IMG/VR virus record: IMGVR_UViG_3300044825_000845
Location: 1 to 33,392 of that record
Origin: a virus
Reading direction: 5' to 3' (one strand)
Length of the DNA: 33,392 nucleotides
How positions within the stretch are numbered: the first letter of the stretch is position 1; each line of letters begins with the position of its first letter. Below are positions 7,426-26,847 of the stretch, in pieces. The notes under the pieces are model-generated. The model was given only the letters and a program-made list of their open reading frames with translations, was not told where the DNA came from and did no database searches. A program made the position numbers and the translations under genes.

Positions 7426-7764
7426 ATGGCAATAGGTGACAGAGACGAACGAAGGCTTGGCGGCCCAACACAGTTGGGTACTACCACGACCACGATTGCT
7501 ACTGCGGCTACTGGTTACAACGAAATCATCAAGCAGGTGGTGATTACTAATACGGATACGGTGGAGCGCACGTTCACTTTGTCGATTGGTACGGCGGCTA
7601 CTGCGGCTAATCGTGTGATTGACACGATGCCGATTGGTGCGAATGACACGATTATTTGGGATACGGCTTTGGTGTTGGCGGCTGGTGAGACGTTGCAGGG
7701 TTTGGCTGATACTGGGTCGAAGGTGAATGTGACGGCTATCGGCTGGGAGAAGCAGACCGCCTAA
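7426..7764 (+). CDS. Small beta-rich tail/fibre-associated protein
   Basis: 112 residues with AAAGGA ahead of the ATG. Composition is Thr/Ala/Ile-rich and beta-strand dominated (KQVVITNTDTVERTFTLSIG, NDTIIWDTALVLAAGETLQGL), the pattern of small beta-sandwich virion accessory proteins such as those found in fibre operons. The ORF sits between the collagen-like gene and the glycine-rich adhesin and shares a one-base overlap with the latter. No catalytic residues are recognisable; a tail or baseplate surface role is inferred. Confidence 0.55.
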   Translation: MAIGDRDERRLGGPTQLGTTTTTIATAATGYNEIIKQVVITNTDTVERTFTLSIGTAATAANRVIDTMPIGANDTIIWDTALVLAAGETLQGLADTGSKVNVTAIGWEKQTA

Positions 7765-8723
7765 TGGGGATTGACAACACCTACGGGTTGGGGTCATTGC
7801 GCCCAGGTGTGTGCACTAGTACTTCGCGTCCAGCGGCACCATTTATCGGTCAAATGATTTATGAAACCGATACAAAAGCAATAAGAATTTATACCTCGAC
7901 TGGATGGGGCAATCCCCTGATAGCGCCAACCACTGTTTCTGTTGACTATCTGGTGGTTGGCGGTGGTGGTGGAGGAGCAGATTCGGGCGGCGGTGGTGGT
8001 GCTGGCGGATTTAGAACTGGTTCGTTGTCGGTTGACATCAGTTCTTCGTTCACTGTCACCGTCGGAGCAGGTGGCGCTGGTGGTGCCGCTGGTGGAAATA
8101 ACAGCGGCTCGGCTGGTAACTCATCTGTGTTTTCTTCAATAACAGCCGCTGGTGGTGGTGCTGGTGGAACATACACGGTTGCTGGGGGAAGTGGTGGTTC
8201 GGGTGGCGGTGGCTCAAGTGGTGGTGCTGGAAATACTCCATCGACATCACCATCGCAGGGAAATAATGGCGGAGCAAACGCAACAAACGCTGTCAACTAC
8301 AACAATGGTGGCGGTGGTGGTGGTGCTGGTGGGGCTGGCTCCAACGCTAGTGCTGGTGCTGGTGGTGCTGGTGGTGCTGGTTCATCTTCAAGCATTAGCG
8401 GTTCATCTGTAACTTATGCTGGTGGTGGCGGTGGAGGCGGAGACTCAAGAGTCGGCGCTGGCGGCGGAACAGGGGGTTCTGGCGGGGGTGGCGCTGGAAG
8501 TTCTGGTGCTGGAGTGAACGGAACAGCAAACACTGGCGGCGGTGGTGGCGGCGCAAGTACTGCTTTGAAGGGTGGAGATGGTGGGTCTGGTGTTGTTATC
8601 CTTCGTTATCCATTGGCGTTTTCTATTAGCGGAGGGTCTGGCCTTACGTTTTCAACTTCAACAGTTGGCGAAAACAAGGTAACAACCTTTACCGCAGGAA
8701 CAGGAACAATTTCTCTCGCATGA
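7764..8723 (+). CDS. Glycine-rich tail adhesin with paralogous N-terminal anchor
   Basis: 319 residues. Residues 13-45 carry the module LRPGVCTSTSRPAAPF-GQ-IYETD, also present in the next two genes. From about residue 65 there is a glycine-rich array with repeated GGGGGGADSG, GAGGAGG and GGSGGGG blocks, closing with GGSGVVILRYPL and a beta-rich tail (TTFTAGTGTISLA). This resembles the glycine-rich adhesins of tailed phages, in which polyglycine helices form a receptor-binding brush. The ATG overlaps the previous stop by one base. Role as host-recognition adhesin is inferred from composition and location. Confidence 0.7.
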   Translation: MGIDNTYGLGSLRPGVCTSTSRPAAPFIGQMIYETDTKAIRIYTSTGWGNPLIAPTTVSVDYLVVGGGGGGADSGGGGGAGGFRTGSLSVDISSSFTVTVGAGGAGGAAGGNNSGSAGNSSVFSSITAAGGGAGGTYTVAGGSGGSGGGGSSGGAGNTPSTSPSQGNNGGANATNAVNYNNGGGGGGAGGAGSNASAGAGGAGGAGSSSSISGSSVTYAGGGGGGGDSRVGAGGGTGGSGGGGAGSSGAGVNGTANTGGGGGGASTALKGGDGGSGVVILRYPLAFSISGGSGLTFSTSTVGENKVTTFTAGTGTISLA

Positions 8724-10273: not shown

Positions 10274-11074
10274 ATGAAAATCAGTGTCGTAACCACGACC
10301 TACAACACACCCCCAGACATCCTCGCCCGCACCTGGGCATCCCTGAAAGCACAGACCTACAAGCAGTGGGAATGGGTCATCTGGGACGACTCAACCACCG
10401 ACGCAGTGTGGCAACAAGTCTACGGGTTCGCATCTGACGAACGGTACAAGGTCAGCATCCACCGCTCCCATGTTCATTCCGGTTCTATTGGTGCGGTCAA
10501 ACGCAAAGCGTTCATGGTCGCAACAGGCGACATCCTTGTCGAACTAGACCACGACGACGAACTCACACCCGACTGCCTCAAAGAAGTAGCGGGCGCGTTC
10601 TACCACTCTGACGCTGGTTTCGTGTACTCCGACTGGTGCGAGATACTCCCCGACGGACAATCAGGAAAATACCCTGACGGCTGGGCGTTCGGCTACGGCG
10701 ACCACTACTGGTCAGACGAACACGGTGTCTGGGTCATGCAGGCCCCGCCGATAAACCTGACCACGATGAGCCACATCGTCTCTGCCCCGAACCATGTGCG
10801 GGCATGGCGAGCAGACCTGTACCGCGAACTCGGCGGGCACAACCCTGACCTGCCGATAGCCGACGACTACGAACTGTGTGTCCGCACCATCCTCGCCGCA
10901 CCCCACAAACAGATACCTCGGCTCCTGTACAAACAGCACATTGGGGCGCATACTGCCCAGCGTCAGCGCAATGGGTTGATACAGGCTCTTGTGGCGCAGA
11001 TAGAAGCGAACTACCATGACAGGCTGGCTGAGACCGATTGGGACGCGAAAGCCGCGGGAAATGCTGTGCGATGA
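10274..11074 (+). CDS. GT-A fold glycosyltransferase (family 2-like)
   Basis: 266 residues with GGAGG just upstream. The N-terminus MKISVVTTTYNTPPDIL and the Asp-Asp-Ser at 38-40 form the nucleotide-binding start of a GT-A fold. DHDDE at 92-96 is the metal-binding DxD region, and ADDYEL near residue 195 is a plausible catalytic-base segment. It has no membrane segment, so it acts in the cytoplasm on a nucleotide-sugar donor. It is ATGA-coupled to a second transferase. Within the structural region it may glycosylate virion proteins or alter a host surface glycan; the acceptor cannot be told. Confidence 0.8.
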   Translation: MKISVVTTTYNTPPDILARTWASLKAQTYKQWEWVIWDDSTTDAVWQQVYGFASDERYKVSIHRSHVHSGSIGAVKRKAFMVATGDILVELDHDDELTPDCLKEVAGAFYHSDAGFVYSDWCEILPDGQSGKYPDGWAFGYGDHYWSDEHGVWVMQAPPINLTTMSHIVSAPNHVRAWRADLYRELGGHNPDLPIADDYELCVRTILAAPHKQIPRLLYKQHIGAHTAQRQRNGLIQALVAQIEANYHDRLAETDWDAKAAGNAVR

Positions 11075-11781: not shown

Positions 11782-12060
11782 ATGGTCAAACATCAAGAAA
11801 CCCACCCGAATCTGGATGTGGAAGGCTGTTTTGGTTGCCGTATTGCCCATGTCCGTACTGGCACCAACACGACGACCACCCGTGGGGCTAGGGTTGCCGA
11901 AGTCAATCAGACTGAACGCAACTGGAACAAGGACATGCCCGCCTACAAGCGGTTGAGGGCTAATGGTCTTCAACCGAAAAAGATTGACGGGGCGGCAGAA
12001 GTCGAGAAGAAAGCGAAAGAGTCATGGCAGGTGGAGACAGGTATTCTTCCCGATTTCTAA
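11782..12060 (+). CDS. Small CFGC protein, conserved in phages
   Basis: 92 residues. The N-terminus HPNLDVEGCFGCRI has a Cys-x-x-Cys that could bind metal, followed by a Thr-rich turn and a helical basic part (DMPAYKRLRANGLQPKKIDGAAEVEKKAKESWQVE). I recall similar short proteins in actinobacteriophage genomes, without assigned function. The 3' end overlaps the next gene by 37 bases in another frame, so the two are likely translationally linked. GAGG is present upstream. Confidence 0.6.
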   Translation: MVKHQETHPNLDVEGCFGCRIAHVRTGTNTTTTRGARVAEVNQTERNWNKDMPAYKRLRANGLQPKKIDGAAEVEKKAKESWQVETGILPDF

Positions 12061-13157
12061 ACTTTCTCGGCCCAGAGTTGCCGAATGTTGGCTATGGCCG
12101 AATGTTTGTTTCGTTGAAAGAATCGCTGTCAAGCCGCGTCCAGTTGGACGAAAAGGCGGAGCATACGGTGTGGGCGATGCAACCGAACATGGTGAAAGGC
12201 TGGTTGCACGGAACTAGGAAAACAATTCTTACGATGTGGGAAACAGACAAACTCCCACCCAAGTTCTACGAATACCTACCCCAATTCGACACCGTCATCG
12301 TGCCATGCCTGCACAACTTCGACCTGTTCTCCCAGCACCACGACAATGTTCATGTCATCCCGTTGGGCGTGGACCGTACCGTTTGGCATCCTGCCGTAAG
12401 ACCCGAGAATGAGAAGTTCAGGATTGTGGCTGGTGGCTCAGAATGGATGCGCAAAGGTTTGGATGTTGTTGTTGAGGCGTTCCAAAAGTTAGGTATGCCT
12501 AACACCGAGTTGCATTTGAAAATTGTGCCGCCCTACCGAAGCGCCCCCGATGTGCGGGTATGGCCGAACGTGGTAGTTCACGACGATTGGATGAGCCTCG
12601 AAGACGAAGTCAACTTGATGCGTTCTGCTGATGTGTTCGTGTCCGCGTCCAGAGGAGAAGGGTTCGGACTGATGCCACTGCAAGCCATCTCTGCTGGCGT
12701 GCCAACCATCCTGACTGACGCGCACGGGCACCGCGAGTTCTCCGACCTTGCAACCCACCGCATCTCGACCAGCCCATCTCCCGCCAAGATAGGTAAGTGG
12801 GATAACATCGGAAATTGGGATGAGCCAAACATCGACGAGTTGATAGACGCCATTCGGGATGTCAAACAAAACTTGGGCAAATACCGCAAGCAGGCATTGG
12901 CTCGGGCTGAAGAGACGGCGGCGTTCAACTGGGATACAGCCGCGGACCAGTTGCTTCAGATTGTCAAGCCATCAGACAGGAAACTGGATACGAACTGGGT
13001 GCGGGCTGGCGAGGTAACCACCCCAATTAGGGTGAACCGCAGGGTGGTGGCTGACATTGGGGCGCATCATGTGGACCTGCGGCCTGGTCAGACTTATCAT
13101 GTAGTGTTGAATGTGCGGGATGTTCTCGCCGAATCTGGTTACCTGGAGGTGTCGTGA
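12024..13157 (+). CDS. GT-B fold glycosyltransferase (family 4-like) with C-terminal extension
   Basis: 377 residues. The donor-binding core is clear: VIPLGVDRTVWHP at 111-123, GGSEWMRKGLDVVVEAF at 137-153, and GEGFGLMPLQAISAGVPTILTD at 211-232. In the usual E-x7-E motif the second acidic residue is replaced by Gln220, which may alter donor contacts. Residues after about 315 form a separate small beta-rich extension (TTPIRVNRRVVADIGAHHVDLRPGQTYHVVLNV) that is not part of a GT-B fold and could dock on the virion or acceptor. Its start overlaps the preceding CFGC gene; it is third in a transferase cluster. Confidence 0.8.
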   Translation: MAGGDRYSSRFLNFLGPELPNVGYGRMFVSLKESLSSRVQLDEKAEHTVWAMQPNMVKGWLHGTRKTILTMWETDKLPPKFYEYLPQFDTVIVPCLHNFDLFSQHHDNVHVIPLGVDRTVWHPAVRPENEKFRIVAGGSEWMRKGLDVVVEAFQKLGMPNTELHLKIVPPYRSAPDVRVWPNVVVHDDWMSLEDEVNLMRSADVFVSASRGEGFGLMPLQAISAGVPTILTDAHGHREFSDLATHRISTSPSPAKIGKWDNIGNWDEPNIDELIDAIRDVKQNLGKYRKQALARAEETAAFNWDTAADQLLQIVKPSDRKLDTNWVRAGEVTTPIRVNRRVVADIGAHHVDLRPGQTYHVVLNVRDVLAESGYLEVS

Positions 13158-13469: not shown

Positions 13470-13791
13470 ATACCAGGGCAAAAACGTCTCGCTGAACAGC
13501 CCGCGCCCTATCCGCAAGGGTGAGCCTGGGTATGGTCGCAAAAAGTCTGTGGTGTATGTGTCGGCTGGCGAACAAGTCAAGCGCGTGATGTTTGGCGACC
13601 CAAACATGAGCATCAAAAAGGACCAGCCTGGGCGTCGTAAGAACTTCCGTGCCCGCCATAACTGCGATAACCCTGGCCCGAAGACCAAGGCGCGTTACTG
13701 GTCTTGCAAGGCGTGGAGTGTGTTAGGGCTGGTAACACTTGGTATGATGGTGGCATGGAATACATCAAGCGTGGCAGGTGGCGTTATTTAG
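13462..13791 (+). CDS. Small conserved phage protein with 3' end altered by HNH insertion
   Basis: 109 residues from ATG 13462, overlapping the previous stop. Residues 1-85 (MAKYQGKNVSLNSPRPIRKGEP to RRKNFRARHNCDNPGP-TKARYWSCKAW) match a widespread small phage family that, as I recall, normally ends at the YWSC-W tail. Here the frame continues for 24 more residues (SVLGLVTLGMMVAWN and on) that read through the promoter and start of the HNH gene. The extra tail is hydrophobic and unlike the rest, so the native stop was probably lost when the endonuclease gene inserted. Confidence 0.65.
   Translation: MAKYQGKNVSLNSPRPIRKGEPGYGRKKSVVYVSAGEQVKRVMFGDPNMSIKKDQPGRRKNFRARHNCDNPGPKTKARYWSCKAWSVLGLVTLGMMVAWNTSSVAGGVI
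13740..13748 (+). promoter_or_regulatory. Extended -10 promoter at the HNH gene
   Basis: TG-G-TATGAT ends six bases before ATG 13755, so the predicted transcription start falls on the start codon itself. No Shine-Dalgarno separates them. It lies within the 3' part of the preceding gene. Confidence 0.5.
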
Positions 13792-14360
13792 CGTTTGTCT
13801 GCCAATCATGCGACAAACAATTTGAAAGACGAATTGACAGGGTAAACGCAACTGGGGCAAAAGCAATTTGTTCGTCCTGCGTTCTTTCTGAAAAGGCCAA
13901 ACAAAACAAAAAACATGGTTTTTATGGGACGCCCACCTATGTGTCCTGGGTGAAAATGAAAGATAGGTGTCTCAACCCGCGCCATAAATACTTCTACTTG
14001 TACGGCGGAAGAGGCATAACCATTGACCCCAAGTGGATGGATTTCATCGGGTTTTTGGAAGACATGGGGCCGATGCCTGTGGCGGGTTACAGTATTGACA
14101 GGATAGACAACGACCTTGGATACTCAAAATCCAACTGTCGATGGATACCCAGAAATGAGCAACAGAAAAATCGGCGTGTCTGCAAGGCAAAGCCTGGTAG
14201 GATTGCGCCACCGAAAGGAGTCACCATGTCCGCAAAGGGTGAAAAGTACAAGAGCAAGAAGTCCAAGATGCGCCACGAAAAGATGGAAGGTGCTAAGGAA
14301 CGCATGATGGAGTACGGCTCCAAAAAGGGCGGCATGAAGAAGGCCAAGAAGAAGAAGTAA
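13755..14360 (+). CDS. HNH homing-type endonuclease, in-frame with a downstream small gene
   Basis: 201 residues from ATG 13755. Cys16, Cys19, Cys39 and Cys42 form a zinc ribbon. Residues 82-131 carry YGGRGI, a Trp, DMGPMP, then DRIDNDLGYSKSNCRW, the core of phage HNH free-standing endonucleases. The enzyme part ends near residue 157, but no stop follows: the frame runs straight into the 44-residue Lys-rich protein that starts at 14226 with its own ribosome site. The product may therefore be an HNH fused to that protein, or the small protein may be made alone. It is likely a recently inserted selfish element. Confidence 0.8.
   Translation: MEYIKRGRWRYLAFVCQSCDKQFERRIDRVNATGAKAICSSCVLSEKAKQNKKHGFYGTPTYVSWVKMKDRCLNPRHKYFYLYGGRGITIDPKWMDFIGFLEDMGPMPVAGYSIDRIDNDLGYSKSNCRWIPRNEQQKNRRVCKAKPGRIAPPKGVTMSAKGEKYKSKKSKMRHEKMEGAKERMMEYGSKKGGMKKAKKKK
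14226..14360 (+). CDS. Lys-rich micro-protein, nested in frame
   Basis: 44 residues, internal in-frame start at ATG 14226 with AAAGGAG five bases upstream (14214-14220). Sequence is Lys/Met-rich (SAKGEKYKSKKSKMRHEKMEGAKERMMEYGS to KKAKKKK). This is the fourth small basic gene of the cluster and was probably the original gene before the HNH insertion. It directly abuts the connector gene that follows. Confidence 0.65.
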   Translation: MSAKGEKYKSKKSKMRHEKMEGAKERMMEYGSKKGGMKKAKKKK

Positions 14361-17103: not shown

Positions 17104-18006
17104 ATGGCTTACGCAACGAGAAGGTCTTACGCTGGGGCGGCACCAGCCTGCACCCTGACGAACAACATCTCGTCTGGCGACACCTCCATGTCCATCACGG
17201 GCACGACAACGAACTGGCCGAACACTGCCAACGGGCCGTTCTACATGGTTATCGACCCAGGTTTGTCCACAGAAGAAAAGGTGCTTGTATCGGGACGCAC
17301 CACAGGCTCGCTGTCAAGTGTTACCCGTGGCGTGGATGGCACTGTTGCCGCGTCACATTCCGCTGGCGCGACCTGTTACCCGATTTTCACTGCTGTTGAC
17401 GCAGACCAGGCGAACAAGGTGGCGTCCACCCTGACCACCAAGGGTGACTTGTTGGTGACCGACGGTTCGGCATTGAACCGCCTTGCCGTCGGCACTAACG
17501 ACTATGTGGTTCTCGCTGACTCTGCCGCAACAAACGGCGTGAAGTGGGGTCAGGTTCCTGCCGCTGGTATCGCTACCGATGCTGTGACTACCGCAAAGAT
17601 TCTTGATAGCAATGTGACGACCGCGAAGATTGCGGACAATGCGGTGACGCAGGCGAAGTTGGCTGACCGTGTTGTCGGTTCCGCCGAGTATGACAGCCTT
17701 ACCTTGAACGCCCAGACTGGTACGACTTACACGCTGGTTCTTGCTGACGCACATAAGTTGGTGACGCTCAGCAACTCATCGGCCATCACTTTGACTGTTC
17801 CACCGAACTCGTCTGTTGCCTTTGAGGTTGGCGACCAAATTGGTTTGCTCCAGTTGGGCGCTGGCCAGGTGACGGTTGCGGCTGGTTCTGGTGTCACTTT
17901 GCGGGCACAAGGAACGAAGGTCAAGTTGTTTGGCCAGTATGCGCTTGCCACTCTCATCAAGATTGGCACCGATGAGTGGGTGCTGGTCGGCAACACGGTG
18001 GCGTAA
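17104..18006 (+). CDS. Tail fibre/minor tail protein
   Basis: 300 residues with AGGAG five bases before ATG 17104. N-terminal domain (residues 1-100) is a beta-rich adaptor with TTGSLSSVTRGVDGTVAASHSAGATCYP, a pattern frequent in tail fibre anchors. A central heptad-like series, TAKILDSNVTTAKIADNAVTQAKLADR (residues ~162-190), forms a trimeric shaft seen in many phage fibres. The C-terminal domain is beta-rich (TYTLVLADAHKLVTLSNSSAITLTVPPNS) and ends in DEWVLVGNTVA. It is coupled to the next glycine-rich gene by a one-base overlap. Confidence 0.7.
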   Translation: MAYATRRSYAGAAPACTLTNNISSGDTSMSITGTTTNWPNTANGPFYMVIDPGLSTEEKVLVSGRTTGSLSSVTRGVDGTVAASHSAGATCYPIFTAVDADQANKVASTLTTKGDLLVTDGSALNRLAVGTNDYVVLADSAATNGVKWGQVPAAGIATDAVTTAKILDSNVTTAKIADNAVTQAKLADRVVGSAEYDSLTLNAQTGTTYTLVLADAHKLVTLSNSSAITLTVPPNSSVAFEVGDQIGLLQLGAGQVTVAAGSGVTLRAQGTKVKLFGQYALATLIKIGTDEWVLVGNTVA

Positions 18007-18692
18007 TGTTGTTTTTGGCGGCGGCGGTTGGTGCTACTACTGCCCCAGAGTTTGAATTTATTGCTGTTGGTGGCGGAGGTTCTGGTTCCAATGGTGACGC
18101 TGGAAACGGTGTGGGCGGTGGTGGTGGCGGCGGGGGTGGATTAGCCGCAGGCACGATTGTCAACCCAACTTCGGGAACTGTAACCGTTGGTTCCGCTGGC
18201 AATAACTCCGTTTGTTTTACCGAGACTGGTTACGCGGGAGGCGGCGCGTCTGGCGTACAGGGTGCAACTGGTGGGGTTGGTGGGGGCCGCACGACAACTG
18301 GTGGTTCGAACGGCGCAAATGGCGGAAACTGGAATGGTGGCGCTGGTGGAACTGGACCAACTTCCTCAATAACTGGAACGTCAGTCAACTACGGTGGCGG
18401 CGGTGGTGCCGCATACGGTGGTCCTGGCGGGGCTGGAGGCGGAGGCACTGGTGCCGCGAGCGTGAACTTGATTGGAACCGCTGGAACGCCCAATACAGGC
18501 GGAGGTGGTGGCGGCGGTTTCGGAACTTTTGCTACTGGTCGCCCAGGCGGTTCTGGAATTGTCATCATCAAATACCCCGACACCTATGTTCCGATTAGAA
18601 CGATTGGTGCGGGACTTACTTACACATACGATGTGACTGGCGGTTACCGCATCTACACGTTCACTGCTGGCTCGGACACGGTGACGTTCTGA
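18006..18692 (+). CDS. Second glycine-rich adhesin
   Basis: 228 residues from ATG 18006, chosen because it overlaps the previous stop; a longer start at 17976 would cut into the fibre gene. MLFLAAAVGATTAPEFEFIAVGGGGSG begins the glycine-rich domain; Gly runs of five to nine continue to residue ~185. It closes with GGSGIVIIKYPDTY and a beta tail ending YTFTAGSDTVTF, matching the end of the adhesin at 7764-8723. The two glycine-rich proteins share closing motifs but not the N-terminal anchor, so they may sit at different virion sites or on different fibres. Confidence 0.65.
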   Translation: MLFLAAAVGATTAPEFEFIAVGGGGSGSNGDAGNGVGGGGGGGGGLAAGTIVNPTSGTVTVGSAGNNSVCFTETGYAGGGASGVQGATGGVGGGRTTTGGSNGANGGNWNGGAGGTGPTSSITGTSVNYGGGGGAAYGGPGGAGGGGTGAASVNLIGTAGTPNTGGGGGGGFGTFATGRPGGSGIVIIKYPDTYVPIRTIGAGLTYTYDVTGGYRIYTFTAGSDTVTF

Positions 18693-18693
18693 G

Positions 18694-19710
18694 TTGCGCA
18701 ACCTTCGTTGGATTGTTTTCGCGCCTGCCGCGATAATCGCATTTAGTGCCCCCGCCCAAGCCGAACAGTATCTAGAATCATTCGATAATGGAACAGCCGA
18801 ACTTGTGTCCGTATCCTTGGGACAAGGAGCGTTCTACTGTAGTAACTACAGAGATGCTTACGGCACCAGCGGACCATCTATCTGTCTGTTCAATACGAGT
18901 GCTCCGACAACTTTTCTATTTCCATCGGATGTGGAAGTACAAGGATTCGAGTTCGTAGCAGGAGCCAAGAACGGGACAGTCAACGGCACTGTCAACTATG
19001 ACGACGGAACCACTGGAACATTCCCGATAGACGGGTCGTGCTGTGTTGCTACGGTGCAGGTATTAGCACCCGAAGGACGAACGATTACTTCGTTCTCTGT
19101 TCCCGCTGACTACGACTTGTATCTGTTTGATTCTCTTGCGTGGGTCGGCTCATCGCCTGCCCCAACAACCACATCAACAGAAACAGTGCCGACAACAAGC
19201 ACACCAGAGCAAACAAGTTCAACATCTACGACCTCTACTTCTTCGACGACTTCTTCGACCGTTCCCATGACCATGCCGCCACCGCCACCAGATACGCAAC
19301 CAACGGTAGAAACAACTTCACCTGAAACCAGCCTTCCTGAAACAACAGTGGCGACCACGCTACCAGCGCCAACCACCACAGTCCCAACAACCACGGTTCC
19401 CGAGACCACCACGACCGTAGCCCAGACCACCACCACAGCCGCCCCTGATACCACTCTCCCGAGCCCTCCACAGGACGACTCGCAGGGTCAGGTACTCCAG
19501 GAAGCACTCGCCGAGGAGCCCCCAGCAAACGCCCCAGACGAGGTCAAGGCACAGTTCGAGGCGCAGGTTGACATCTTCTCTGGCGACTACGACACCTATG
19601 TCCCGTTAGGTTCGAAGATTTCTGTGGCTCAGCGCCGTACCGTTGTTGCCGTCACCGCGGTCTTCCTCATGCTGGCACCGCCACCATCTACAATGAGACG
19701 ACGCCAATGA
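18694..19710 (+). CDS. Secreted mucin-like protein with C-terminal membrane segment
   Basis: 338 residues, TTG start one base after the previous stop. Residues 1-23 are a clear signal peptide (RNLRW, hydrophobic core, cleavage after AQA). Residues 24-152 form a beta-rich domain with four Cys (49, 64, 116, 117). Residues ~155-265 are almost entirely Thr/Ser/Pro repeats resembling a cell-wall-spanning, glycosylatable stalk. After a short acidic region, residues ~313-330 form a hydrophobic stretch, followed by a basic tail MRRRQ, the layout of a sorting-like or membrane anchor. It is probably displayed on the infected cell. No LPxTG motif is visible. It precedes the lysis genes. Confidence 0.7.
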   Translation: MRNLRWIVFAPAAIIAFSAPAQAEQYLESFDNGTAELVSVSLGQGAFYCSNYRDAYGTSGPSICLFNTSAPTTFLFPSDVEVQGFEFVAGAKNGTVNGTVNYDDGTTGTFPIDGSCCVATVQVLAPEGRTITSFSVPADYDLYLFDSLAWVGSSPAPTTTSTETVPTTSTPEQTSSTSTTSTSSTTSSTVPMTMPPPPPDTQPTVETTSPETSLPETTVATTLPAPTTTVPTTTVPETTTTVAQTTTTAAPDTTLPSPPQDDSQGQVLQEALAEEPPANAPDEVKAQFEAQVDIFSGDYDTYVPLGSKISVAQRRTVVAVTAVFLMLAPPPSTMRRRQ

Positions 19711-19868
19711 GAAAGTTTCTGAATTTCCTAGCGGATAACTCCTGGACATACGCTGGAACAGGGCTTGTCTTGATTACCCTTACTGGTCCTACTTTGCGGC
19801 AAGCATTGTGGCTTACTGGTGTAACATTGGTGCTACATTCTGTACTGACCCTGACCCAAAAGGACTAG
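19707..19868 (+). CDS. Small membrane protein of the lysis region
   Basis: 53 residues, ATGA-coupled to the mucin-like gene. Two short hydrophobic segments (YAGTGLVLITL and ALWLTGVTLVLHSVLTL) around a TGPTLRQ turn suggest two membrane passes. It could be a holin or antiholin partner of the following gene. Assignment is from size, hydrophobicity and location. Confidence 0.55.
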   Translation: MRKFLNFLADNSWTYAGTGLVLITLTGPTLRQALWLTGVTLVLHSVLTLTQKD

Positions 19869-19870
19869 CA

Positions 19871-20098
19871 ATGGCAACCCTTAAGACCCTCGTACTTCGC
19901 ATCGTCGCCGTGTTCGGCTCGTCCGCTCTTGCCGCTGTTGCGGGTGGTGCGGTGTTGGATGTCGAGTTGTGGAAGGCCGCCGCTATCGCAGGTATCGTTG
20001 CCGCCGCCAAGGTCACCGAAGCGTTGCTCCGTTCTTGGGCGAGCGATGGGGTGTTGTCGAAGGAAGAGATTGCTGAGGCTTTCGGCAAGGCTAAGTAA
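19871..20098 (+). CDS. Putative holin
   Basis: 75 residues from ATG 19871 with AAAGGA upstream; the longer upstream start overlaps the previous gene in a different frame and is not supported. Two hydrophobic segments, LVLRIVAVFGSSALAAVAGGAVL and WKAAAIAGIVAAAKVTEALL, are joined by a short turn, followed by a charged C-terminus (SKEEIAEAFGKAK). This layout and its one-base overlap with the peptidase gene fit a class II-like holin that permeabilises the membrane to release the endolysin. Confidence 0.65.
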   Translation: MATLKTLVLRIVAVFGSSALAAVAGGAVLDVELWKAAAIAGIVAAAKVTEALLRSWASDGVLSKEEIAEAFGKAK

Positions 20099-20646
20099 TG
20101 CGTAAGCCTTTCCCTGTAGTCAAAGTCTCTCTCTGCTCGCACCTCAAGGGTGTGAAGGCTGGCGAACTGTCGTCTGATTTGTTGAAGACGATTGAGAAGG
20201 GTCGCTTGCATCATTGTGCGGCTGACGCATACGAGGCCATGGACGAAGCCGCCAACGCTGAGGGTATTGACTTGTCGCCCACGTCAACTGCGGACACTTA
20301 CCGTTCGTTGGAGATGCAGGAGTACGGGTTCTTTCAGCGTTACACGGATAAGCCGAAGAAGAACTTGTTGAAGCAGAAGCCACGCATCTACAAGGGCAAG
20401 GCGTGGTACCTGCGTAAGGGCATGGCTCCGATGGCTGTGCCTGGAACCAGCAACCACAACCTTGGCATCGCAGTCGACATCGCCAACGCTTCAGGCAAGC
20501 GGTTGGAGTGGCTGTTGAAGAACGCTCAGTCGTTCGGGTTCTCTTGGGAAGTTCAGTCCGAGCCGTGGCACCTGCGTTATGTGGCGGGTGACAATGTTCC
20601 AGAGCGTGTCAAACTCTGGAAAGAGTCCAAAGTTACCGAGGCGTAA
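20098..20646 (+). CDS. M15-family peptidase endolysin
   Basis: 182 residues; start overlaps the holin stop by one base. SNHNLGIAVDIA at 118-129 and EPWHLRY at 155-161 supply the zinc ligands and base of the M15/VanY D-Ala-D-Ala peptidase fold (His120, Asp127, His158). It has no signal peptide, so it needs holin pores to reach the wall and cleave peptidoglycan peptides. There is no separate wall-binding domain; the N-terminal ~90 residues are basic and could serve this purpose. A short membrane-anchored protein follows one base later. Confidence 0.8.
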   Translation: MRKPFPVVKVSLCSHLKGVKAGELSSDLLKTIEKGRLHHCAADAYEAMDEAANAEGIDLSPTSTADTYRSLEMQEYGFFQRYTDKPKKNLLKQKPRIYKGKAWYLRKGMAPMAVPGTSNHNLGIAVDIANASGKRLEWLLKNAQSFGFSWEVQSEPWHLRYVAGDNVPERVKLWKESKVTEA

Positions 20647-20647
20647 C

Positions 20648-20881
20648 ATGGATGCGGGCTGGGCGACCGTCGTTGCGGCGGCAATCACCGCAACAGGTGG
20701 TGTCCTCGTCGTCCTCCTCCAGAAAGCCCGCAAAGAAAACAAGCGTGACCACGAAGTCGTGCAAGGGATTCTTCGCATGATGTACCGCGGGATGCAACGC
20801 ACCGAAGACAAGGTGGACAAGGTCGCTGACCGTCTCGCAGACCACCTGCATGAGCATCATCGGGATTCGCAAGACGCTTAG
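20648..20881 (+). CDS. Single-pass membrane coiled-coil protein, holin- or spanin-like
   Basis: 77 residues from ATG 20648. Residues 4-24 (GWATVVAAAITATGGVLVVLLQ) form one transmembrane helix, followed by a charged coiled coil (KARKENKRDHEVVQGILRMMYRGMQRTEDKVDKVADRLADHLHEHH). Similar small N-terminal-anchor proteins (DUF2746-like) are found in the lysis cassettes of actinophages. It could be a second holin or an accessory disruption factor; a true spanin is not expected in a host lacking an outer membrane. Confidence 0.6.
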   Translation: MDAGWATVVAAAITATGGVLVVLLQKARKENKRDHEVVQGILRMMYRGMQRTEDKVDKVADRLADHLHEHHRDSQDA

Positions 20882-24530: not shown

Positions 24531-25046
24531 ATGTTGAAGTACGTTGTGTGCGCGTTATTCACAGGGGTTGTCATAGCCGTCCCCCCAGCGGCGGCATCCA
24601 CCCAAGATGAAGGCAAGATGGCAGAAGGGACGAAGGGAAGAGCGGCAGTAGTGGTCCCAATTAGAGCGACCCCCCGCAAACCGATACCAGCAGACCAAGA
24701 GATGCGATGCCCAGAATGGCATCCCCTGTTCCGCAAGTACGGGCTACCCGTGCAGGTGTTCTCGTACATAGCGTGGCGTGAATCCCGATGCCGACCCAAC
24801 GCCATCAACGCCACATGGAACAAGCACGGAGTCATGACCTACCACCTGAATAACAACAAGTCATGGGACTCTGGTCTCCTCCAAGTCAATTCCAGTTGGG
24901 TCAATAGTGTCCGAGCGGTATGCGGACGCAAGACAGGCGACATGAGGAAAGACCTCGAAGCCCTGCTAGACCCAGACTGCAATGTCAAGTTTGCCCGTTG
25001 GATTATGGACAACACCAAGGGCGGGCTTGGCAACTGGAGTCTTTGA
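24531..25046 (+). CDS. Secreted lysozyme-like/transglycosylase-type protein
   Basis: 171 residues. Residues 1-22 are a signal peptide (LKYVVCALFTGVVIAVPPAAA). The lysozyme-like core is YIAWRESRCRPNAIN with catalytic Glu84, then DSGLLQVNSSWV (GLLQ at 115-118), and DPDCNVKFARWIMD (148-160), the usual pattern of SLT/goose-type folds. Cys60, 87, 131 and 150 could form two disulfides, suiting an extracytoplasmic location. It is not next to the holin and M15 gene but among recombination genes, and so may act in export-dependent wall remodelling or as an entry enzyme. Confidence 0.75.
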   Translation: MLKYVVCALFTGVVIAVPPAAASTQDEGKMAEGTKGRAAVVVPIRATPRKPIPADQEMRCPEWHPLFRKYGLPVQVFSYIAWRESRCRPNAINATWNKHGVMTYHLNNNKSWDSGLLQVNSSWVNSVRAVCGRKTGDMRKDLEALLDPDCNVKFARWIMDNTKGGLGNWSL

Positions 25047-26588: not shown

Positions 26589-26847
26589 AATGGCATGGTG
26601 GGATGACGCGCCCTGCAAAGGGATGGATAACAGCGTGTTCTTCCCAGAGATAGGCAAAGGTCAATCATCTAAGACTGCGTACGATGATGCTATTGCGGTG
26701 TGCGAGCCATGCCAGTATCGCGTGCAGTGTTTAGAGTTCGCTATCGAATCAGAGATGAACGACATCCGTAGGTACGGTGTGTTCGGTGGTCTTACGCCTC
26801 GGGAACGTGAAGAGTATTTTGCTGGGCGACTGCACCTGAGAAAGTGA
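26560..26847 (+). CDS. whiB: WhiB-family iron-sulfur transcription regulator
   Basis: 95 residues. Cys19, Cys48, Cys51 and Cys57 are the four cluster ligands with the family's C-x(n)-C-x2-C-x5-C spacing; WWDDAPCKGMD and FFPE are the typical N-terminal motifs; GVFGGLTPRER at 73-83 is the beta-turn. Phage WhiB proteins bind host RNA polymerase sigma subunit and change transcription. The family is essentially restricted to actinobacteria and their phages, the best host clue here. It is last in the rightward run and AAGGAG precedes it. Starts at 26575 and 26578 are possible. Confidence 0.9.
   Translation: MTAVNMMTSEMAWWDDAPCKGMDNSVFFPEIGKGQSSKTAYDDAIAVCEPCQYRVQCLEFAIESEMNDIRRYGVFGGLTPREREEYFAGRLHLRK

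Follow-up and report, generated by a model that had tools for sequence, protein, structure and literature searches.

The gene at positions 18694-19710 of the window (the entire IMG/VR virus record, 33,392 bases; + strand, as for all parts of the protein and the adjoining genes given below) encodes a stalked surface protein of 338 residues. It belongs to a family of viral proteins which combine interchangeable heads with a conserved C-terminal base module and with a two-helix membrane protein, referred to as the partner, which is encoded next to the base or fused to it. The family plan consists of a signal peptide, a variable head, a Thr/Ser/Pro stalk (often with an additional helical region), the base, a short hydrophobic stretch and a basic tail. 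The overall explanation preferred here, with a probability of about 0.4, is that the product is a late-expressed, Sec-exported, membrane-anchored lectin which controls adsorption via glycans on infected actinobacterial cells.

The open reading frame has a TTG start that abuts the stop of the preceding gene. Its dN/dS was 0.21 in the comparison with locus L004 and 0.32 with locus L007, the changes falling mostly in codon position 3; these values and the conservation of the sequence identify a real gene under purifying selection and rule out a chance ORF. Residues 1-23 (18694-18762) form a signal peptide according to sequence, hydropathy and family-wide comparison, with the h-region IVFAPAAIIAFSAPA (mean hydropathy 2.0) and the cleavage site AQA|EQ. 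Using an ad hoc heuristic devised for this analysis (not SignalP), signal peptides were called in 149 of the 150 full-length family ORFs; among the 442 long ORFs of other kinds in these loci, 62 were positive. Four cysteines (positions 49, 64, 116 and 117) lie in the head (residues 24-156, 18763-19161), which is followed by the stalk, delimited by composition at residues 157-265 (19162-19488); 77 of the 111 residues from 155 to 265 are Thr (42), Ser (14) or Pro (21).

Residues 279-315 (19528-19638) fit the base pattern APDEVKxxFE...IFxGxxDxYVPxGSxIxVxxRR, the base lying within the C-terminal ~45 residues. The closing RR precedes the hydrophobic segment TVVAVTAVFLMLAPPPSTM-RRRQ (19639-19707), a presumed membrane anchor on the basis of hydropathy and of a helix that follows RR in a modelled relative with a fused partner; its length of only 15-19 residues and the PPP which it includes count against that reading. 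The protein has no LPXTG motif ahead of its terminal hydrophobic stretch and no lipobox Cys after the signal peptide (residues 19-24 are APAQAE, and the first Cys is at 49), which rules out LPXTG or lipoprotein anchoring. The preliminary description of this DNA had listed a signal peptide, four cysteines, a Thr/Ser/Pro region and a terminal hydrophobic segment with a basic tail, all of which are present; its account of the terminal segment stands as regards hydrophobicity and basic tail, but the segment is short, and the conserved base in front of it had been missed.

A search with the C-terminal alignment found the base module in at least 237 IMG/VR contigs, and a search with the partner only yielded at least 580 viral contigs, figures that contradict the earlier statement that phages rarely encode such proteins. 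Exactly one base per record was present in 16 phage records of 33-210 kb, and relatives of the window head, where their C-terminus is covered, all carry this base or one close to it. Among the first relatives, L008 resembles the window protein at the C-terminus only, whereas Actinomycetia phage DSL-LC01 encodes a protein of 944 aa that has both head and C-terminus in common with it and carries the sequence of the window's 53-aa ORF fused behind. Neither Pfam nor PHROGs holds a family for the window protein, because relatives such as L008 match the C-terminus alone. A PDB sequence search with the window protein gave chance antibody matches only, and a PDB fold search with a model of base plus partner gave no match (best E 0.46). 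No prior description of a family of stalked lectins with base and partner was found in the open-access papers covered, among them papers on lake actinophages, phage lectins and PA14; within this scope, novelty is provisional.

Patterns run against 84,980 bacterial and archaeal genomes matched 149 times, and there was one doubtful relative, similar over 23 residues, in a Bacteroidaceae MAG. No convincing base copy was found in these cellular genomes at the sensitivity of the scan, which used short patterns that distant copies could escape, and at that sensitivity the base is thus phage-specific. An origin as a host-derived moron with cellular base homologues is rejected on the basis of this single doubtful match in the short-pattern scan.

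The window head was modelled with AlphaFold from 17 sequences (pLDDT 82.5) as a CBM-like jelly roll. The best Foldseek matches were the folds of CBM35, CBM11, CBM61, CBM29, CBM36 and the peptidoglycan O-acetylesterase Ape1 (best TMq 0.63-0.65), with TM-scores of 0.5-0.65 to CBM-type folds; toxin domains with a jelly roll of this type were also among the matches. The structure-database search with the head domain, proposed in the preliminary description, gives a jelly-roll fold at a TMq of up to 0.65; no sugar-binding residues were recognised in the head. Pfam gave no CBM or PA14 match for the window protein. The modelled fold supports glycan binding without proving it.

Across the family eleven head clusters were distinguished. 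Pfam searches of 39 family proteins identified PA14 in nine and FN3 in four, and individual heads matched L-type lectin (5.7e-43), SUEL lectin and C-type lectin domains (the last in L101:1894-5172). A glycan-binding function of the head, predicted from structure or domains, is regarded as likely.

Heads are interchangeable: in related phages the signal peptide on one side and the stalk and base on the other are conserved, and the head between them is cleanly replaced. Loci L115 and L118 share 91.6% identity as far as the signal peptide and 91.3% from the stalk on, with unrelated heads in between; in L129 and L152 the head is replaced between flanks that are 84-85% identical. A total of 27 locus pairs combine bases at least 75% identical with heads from different clusters. 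Between the window and L004, dS is ~0.1 in head and stalk versus 0.8 in the base, which fits exchanged segments. Cassette-like exchange of this kind is typical of specificity-determining parts.

The partner (53 residues, 19707-19868) begins in the ATGA at 19707-19710, where the stop of the stalked-protein gene overlaps its start codon. It matches phrog_29041 (listed as function unknown in PHROGs) at 2.5e-29, and 27 of 29 partners were assigned to that group. Partners have two helices and the signature WTxAGTGLVLITLSG (core LVLIT[LT][ST]G), and their genes lie directly 3' of the base gene, mostly overlapping it or at most 45 bases away. According to local HMM counts, a partner adjoins or is fused to the base in 104 of 105 base loci, a set which includes some contigs twice and amounts to ~96 different IMG/VR contigs together with DSL-LC01 and the window; the exception (L059) ends at a contig edge. 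Fusions occur in DSL-LC01 and nine IMG/VR loci. About 500 bases separate the two genes in L012 and L079, and ORFs resembling HNH homing endonucleases by eye lie exactly between them (L012:5238-5678; L079:2269-2739). An ORF of the same appearance, also assigned by eye and with only weak zinc-ribbon matches in Pfam, is located between structural genes of the window (13704-14360).

Among 78 new loci fetched via the partner, the base was found upstream in 76, one contig was cut off and one locus (L111) was different. In L111 the partner is paired with an FN3 protein whose C-terminus is made up of LPVTGG, then a hydrophobic stretch and finally SKKG, i.e., a sortase-type anchor. This small sample suggests that the base occupies a position open to a sortase anchor and that the partner serves the base. 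Four relatives of the L111 protein (L188, L189, L190 and L191) also end in LPVTGG, with no partner within the available stretch; these FN3-domain phage proteins appear as phage-encoded sortase substrates.

In the model of the L105 base with its fused partner, the base region is helical and one helix comes after RR; a disordered Gly-rich/acidic linker and a two-helix hairpin complete the model. Given a pTM of 0.49 and the lack of a PDB fold match, its outline alone is usable. Fusion and linkage point to a probable physical contact between base and partner. The protein had originally been described as secreted, stalked and surface-displayed; a Sec-exported, stalked and membrane-anchored surface protein agrees with the family plan, the CBM and lectin heads, the head swapping and the LPXTG-anchored counterpart. 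From these sequence features, display of the stalked protein on the surface of the infected cell is considered highly probable.

The partner gene is followed by genes for a holin-like small membrane protein (19871-20098; holin by eye and position, phrog_26427, labelled 'nuclease' in PHROGs), a VanY-type peptidase regarded as the endolysin (20098-20646; Pfam VanY, 6.7e-16) and a small protein (20648-20881; phrog_32850) in which a single membrane helix and a probable coiled coil were seen by eye. The coupling by ATGA to a small membrane protein and lysis genes, as originally proposed, is borne out by this gene order. Across the family loci, genes within 3 kb downstream include VanY peptidases, peptidoglycan-binding proteins and PHROG endolysins. 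The position beside lysis genes suggests that the stalked protein is expressed late; exclusion proteins are often expressed early. A lysozyme-like protein with an SLT transglycosylase domain is encoded outside the lysis cassette (24531-25046).

Directly upstream lies the gene for a Gly-rich protein (17976-18692; Pfam Gly_rich_2, phrog_2295), a possible tail adhesin, which varies among relatives and has no match in L007; a second phrog_2295 protein is encoded at 7764-8723. The same head is found beside different upstream genes, namely the Gly-rich gene in the window, another protein in L007 and a fibre-like end in L004 and L099. The comparison of heads with tail receptor-binding genes covered a few pairs; the upstream tail genes are possible receptor-binding genes, the head does not strictly follow them, and the simple view of the head as a mask for the receptor used by the phage's own tail is weakened. 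Two ORFs among the structural genes of the window encode a GT4-type glycosyltransferase (12024-13157) and a weaker glycosyltransferase-like protein (10274-11074), for which virions or the Thr-rich stalk are possible substrates.

With regard to the host, the window contains a WhiB gene (26596-26814; 1.1e-15), and WhiB was present in 13 of the 17 records tested, the window included. WhiB-family genes are common in actinophages, and their frequency here points to actinobacterial hosts; the virus is regarded as one of lake actinobacteria. The host of DSL-LC01 was predicted to be actinobacterial by its authors (PMC10611076).

In the proposed mechanism, the host Sec system would export the lectin late in infection, and base and hydrophobic segment would hold it in the cytoplasmic membrane, probably in a complex with the two-helix partner. 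The Thr/Ser/Pro stalk would take the swappable, carbohydrate-binding-type head across the cell wall to the outside, where cell-surface glycans would be its targets, both on the actinobacterial cell under infection and on leftover envelope fragments. With glycan receptors occupied or crowded, no further phage would adsorb to a cell that is producing virions, and no progeny would be lost on debris. Adsorption control is favoured as the purpose since the protein would appear late, stay with the envelope and carry heads of glycan-binding type; as a statement of purpose it is tentative, with somewhat less than even odds. The sequence by itself does not discriminate among the roles suggested at the outset, namely a block to superinfection, binding of debris, altered aggregation or a decoy.

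The main rival is adhesion in trans, in which the displayed lectin would tether uninfected kin or particles to the lysing cell, so that progeny meet hosts in dilute lake water. The flocculin-like plan of PA14 or lectin head, Thr/Ser stalk and anchor (Flo review PMC8621652), the lectin and CBM-like heads and the independence of head diversity from the neighbouring tail gene are all in line with it. Tethering carries a risk of loss through sinking or grazing, however, and does not require tight linkage to lysis genes, and this alternative is judged possible but clearly less probable than adsorption control.

The association of base and partner, which are nearly always found together, sometimes fused and usually just upstream of holin and endolysin, would also suit a regulator in which an outside signal from the lectin reaches the holin via base and partner and either delays or triggers lysis. 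T4 RI lysis inhibition offers an analogy, and candidate signals would be a superinfecting phage or the density of host glycans. Very strong purifying selection on the partner fits such a role (the window and L007 encode the same partner protein in spite of 25 base differences and a dS of ~1.2). However, equal linkage is shown by co-expressed late genes, no homology to antiholins was seen, and the DSL-LC01 endolysin gene lies ~4 kb away on the opposite strand; a lysis sensor is accordingly considered improbable. The same low probability is assigned to the broader proposal that an interchangeable lectin on the infected cell, the base and the partner might constitute a widespread, phage-specific sensor/display system coupled to the lysis genes, in which ligands bound outside, such as neighbouring hosts or other phages, set the timing of lysis or control adsorption; if true, it would represent a novel class of phage system.

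A role as a lysis aid, with base, partner and stalk weakening or bridging the outer envelope as a Gram-positive counterpart of spanins, would agree with the adjoining lysis genes and the membrane nature of the partner, but diverse lectin-type heads which swap among close relatives are unlike a generic lysis factor, and the LPXTG-anchored counterpart in L111 also speaks against it, making this role very improbable. A virion structural protein, e.g., a tail or head adhesin, could be imagined from the adjoining tail genes and from the CBM and lectin domains that occur in tail fibres too, but is rejected on account of the signal peptide kept in nearly all full-length relatives and of the C-terminal membrane anchor with its membrane partner.

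If adsorption control by a displayed lectin is correct, many phages of aquatic actinobacteria, which are among the commonest lake bacteria, would re-coat infected cells with a lectin of their own choice, held by a previously unknown anchor of base plus partner. Control of adsorption on infected cells and debris, or recruitment of new hosts in dilute water, would become testable. The function-unknown group phrog_29041 gains a context, and a two-part membrane display device is predicted.

Among known systems, the Ltp lipoproteins are lipid-anchored and have no stalk. Like these superinfection-exclusion proteins of phages infecting Streptococcus thermophilus (PMC3952083), the window protein is phage-encoded, predicted to be exported and exposed on the host surface, and proposed to affect superinfection; it differs in its lectin-type head, long stalk, base and two-helix partner. 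CwpV of Clostridioides difficile (PMC4737114), compared by description rather than by sequence, is likewise a modular cell-surface protein affecting phage infection, but it is the product of a phase-variable host gene and is not phage-encoded. Yeast Flo/PA14 adhesins (PMC8621652) share the succession of PA14-type lectin head, Ser/Thr-rich stalk and anchor; they are, however, eukaryotic GPI-anchored host adhesins, and PA14 is present in some relatives only and is not the head of the window protein. Gram-positive LPXTG adhesins have a similar plan, in which signal peptide, head and Pro/Thr-rich stalk precede the motif, a hydrophobic stretch and a basic tail, and L111 has its LPVTGG in the same place, whereas the window protein lacks LPXTG and its base needs no known sortase site. 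In PHROGs, the partner is a member of phrog_29041, whereas the stalked protein itself has no family there. A further counterpart is WJZ48438 of DSL-LC01 (OQ999401), which has the same head, Thr stalks, the base and a C-terminally fused partner; it differs in its greater length and its extra domains and is annotated as a hypothetical protein.
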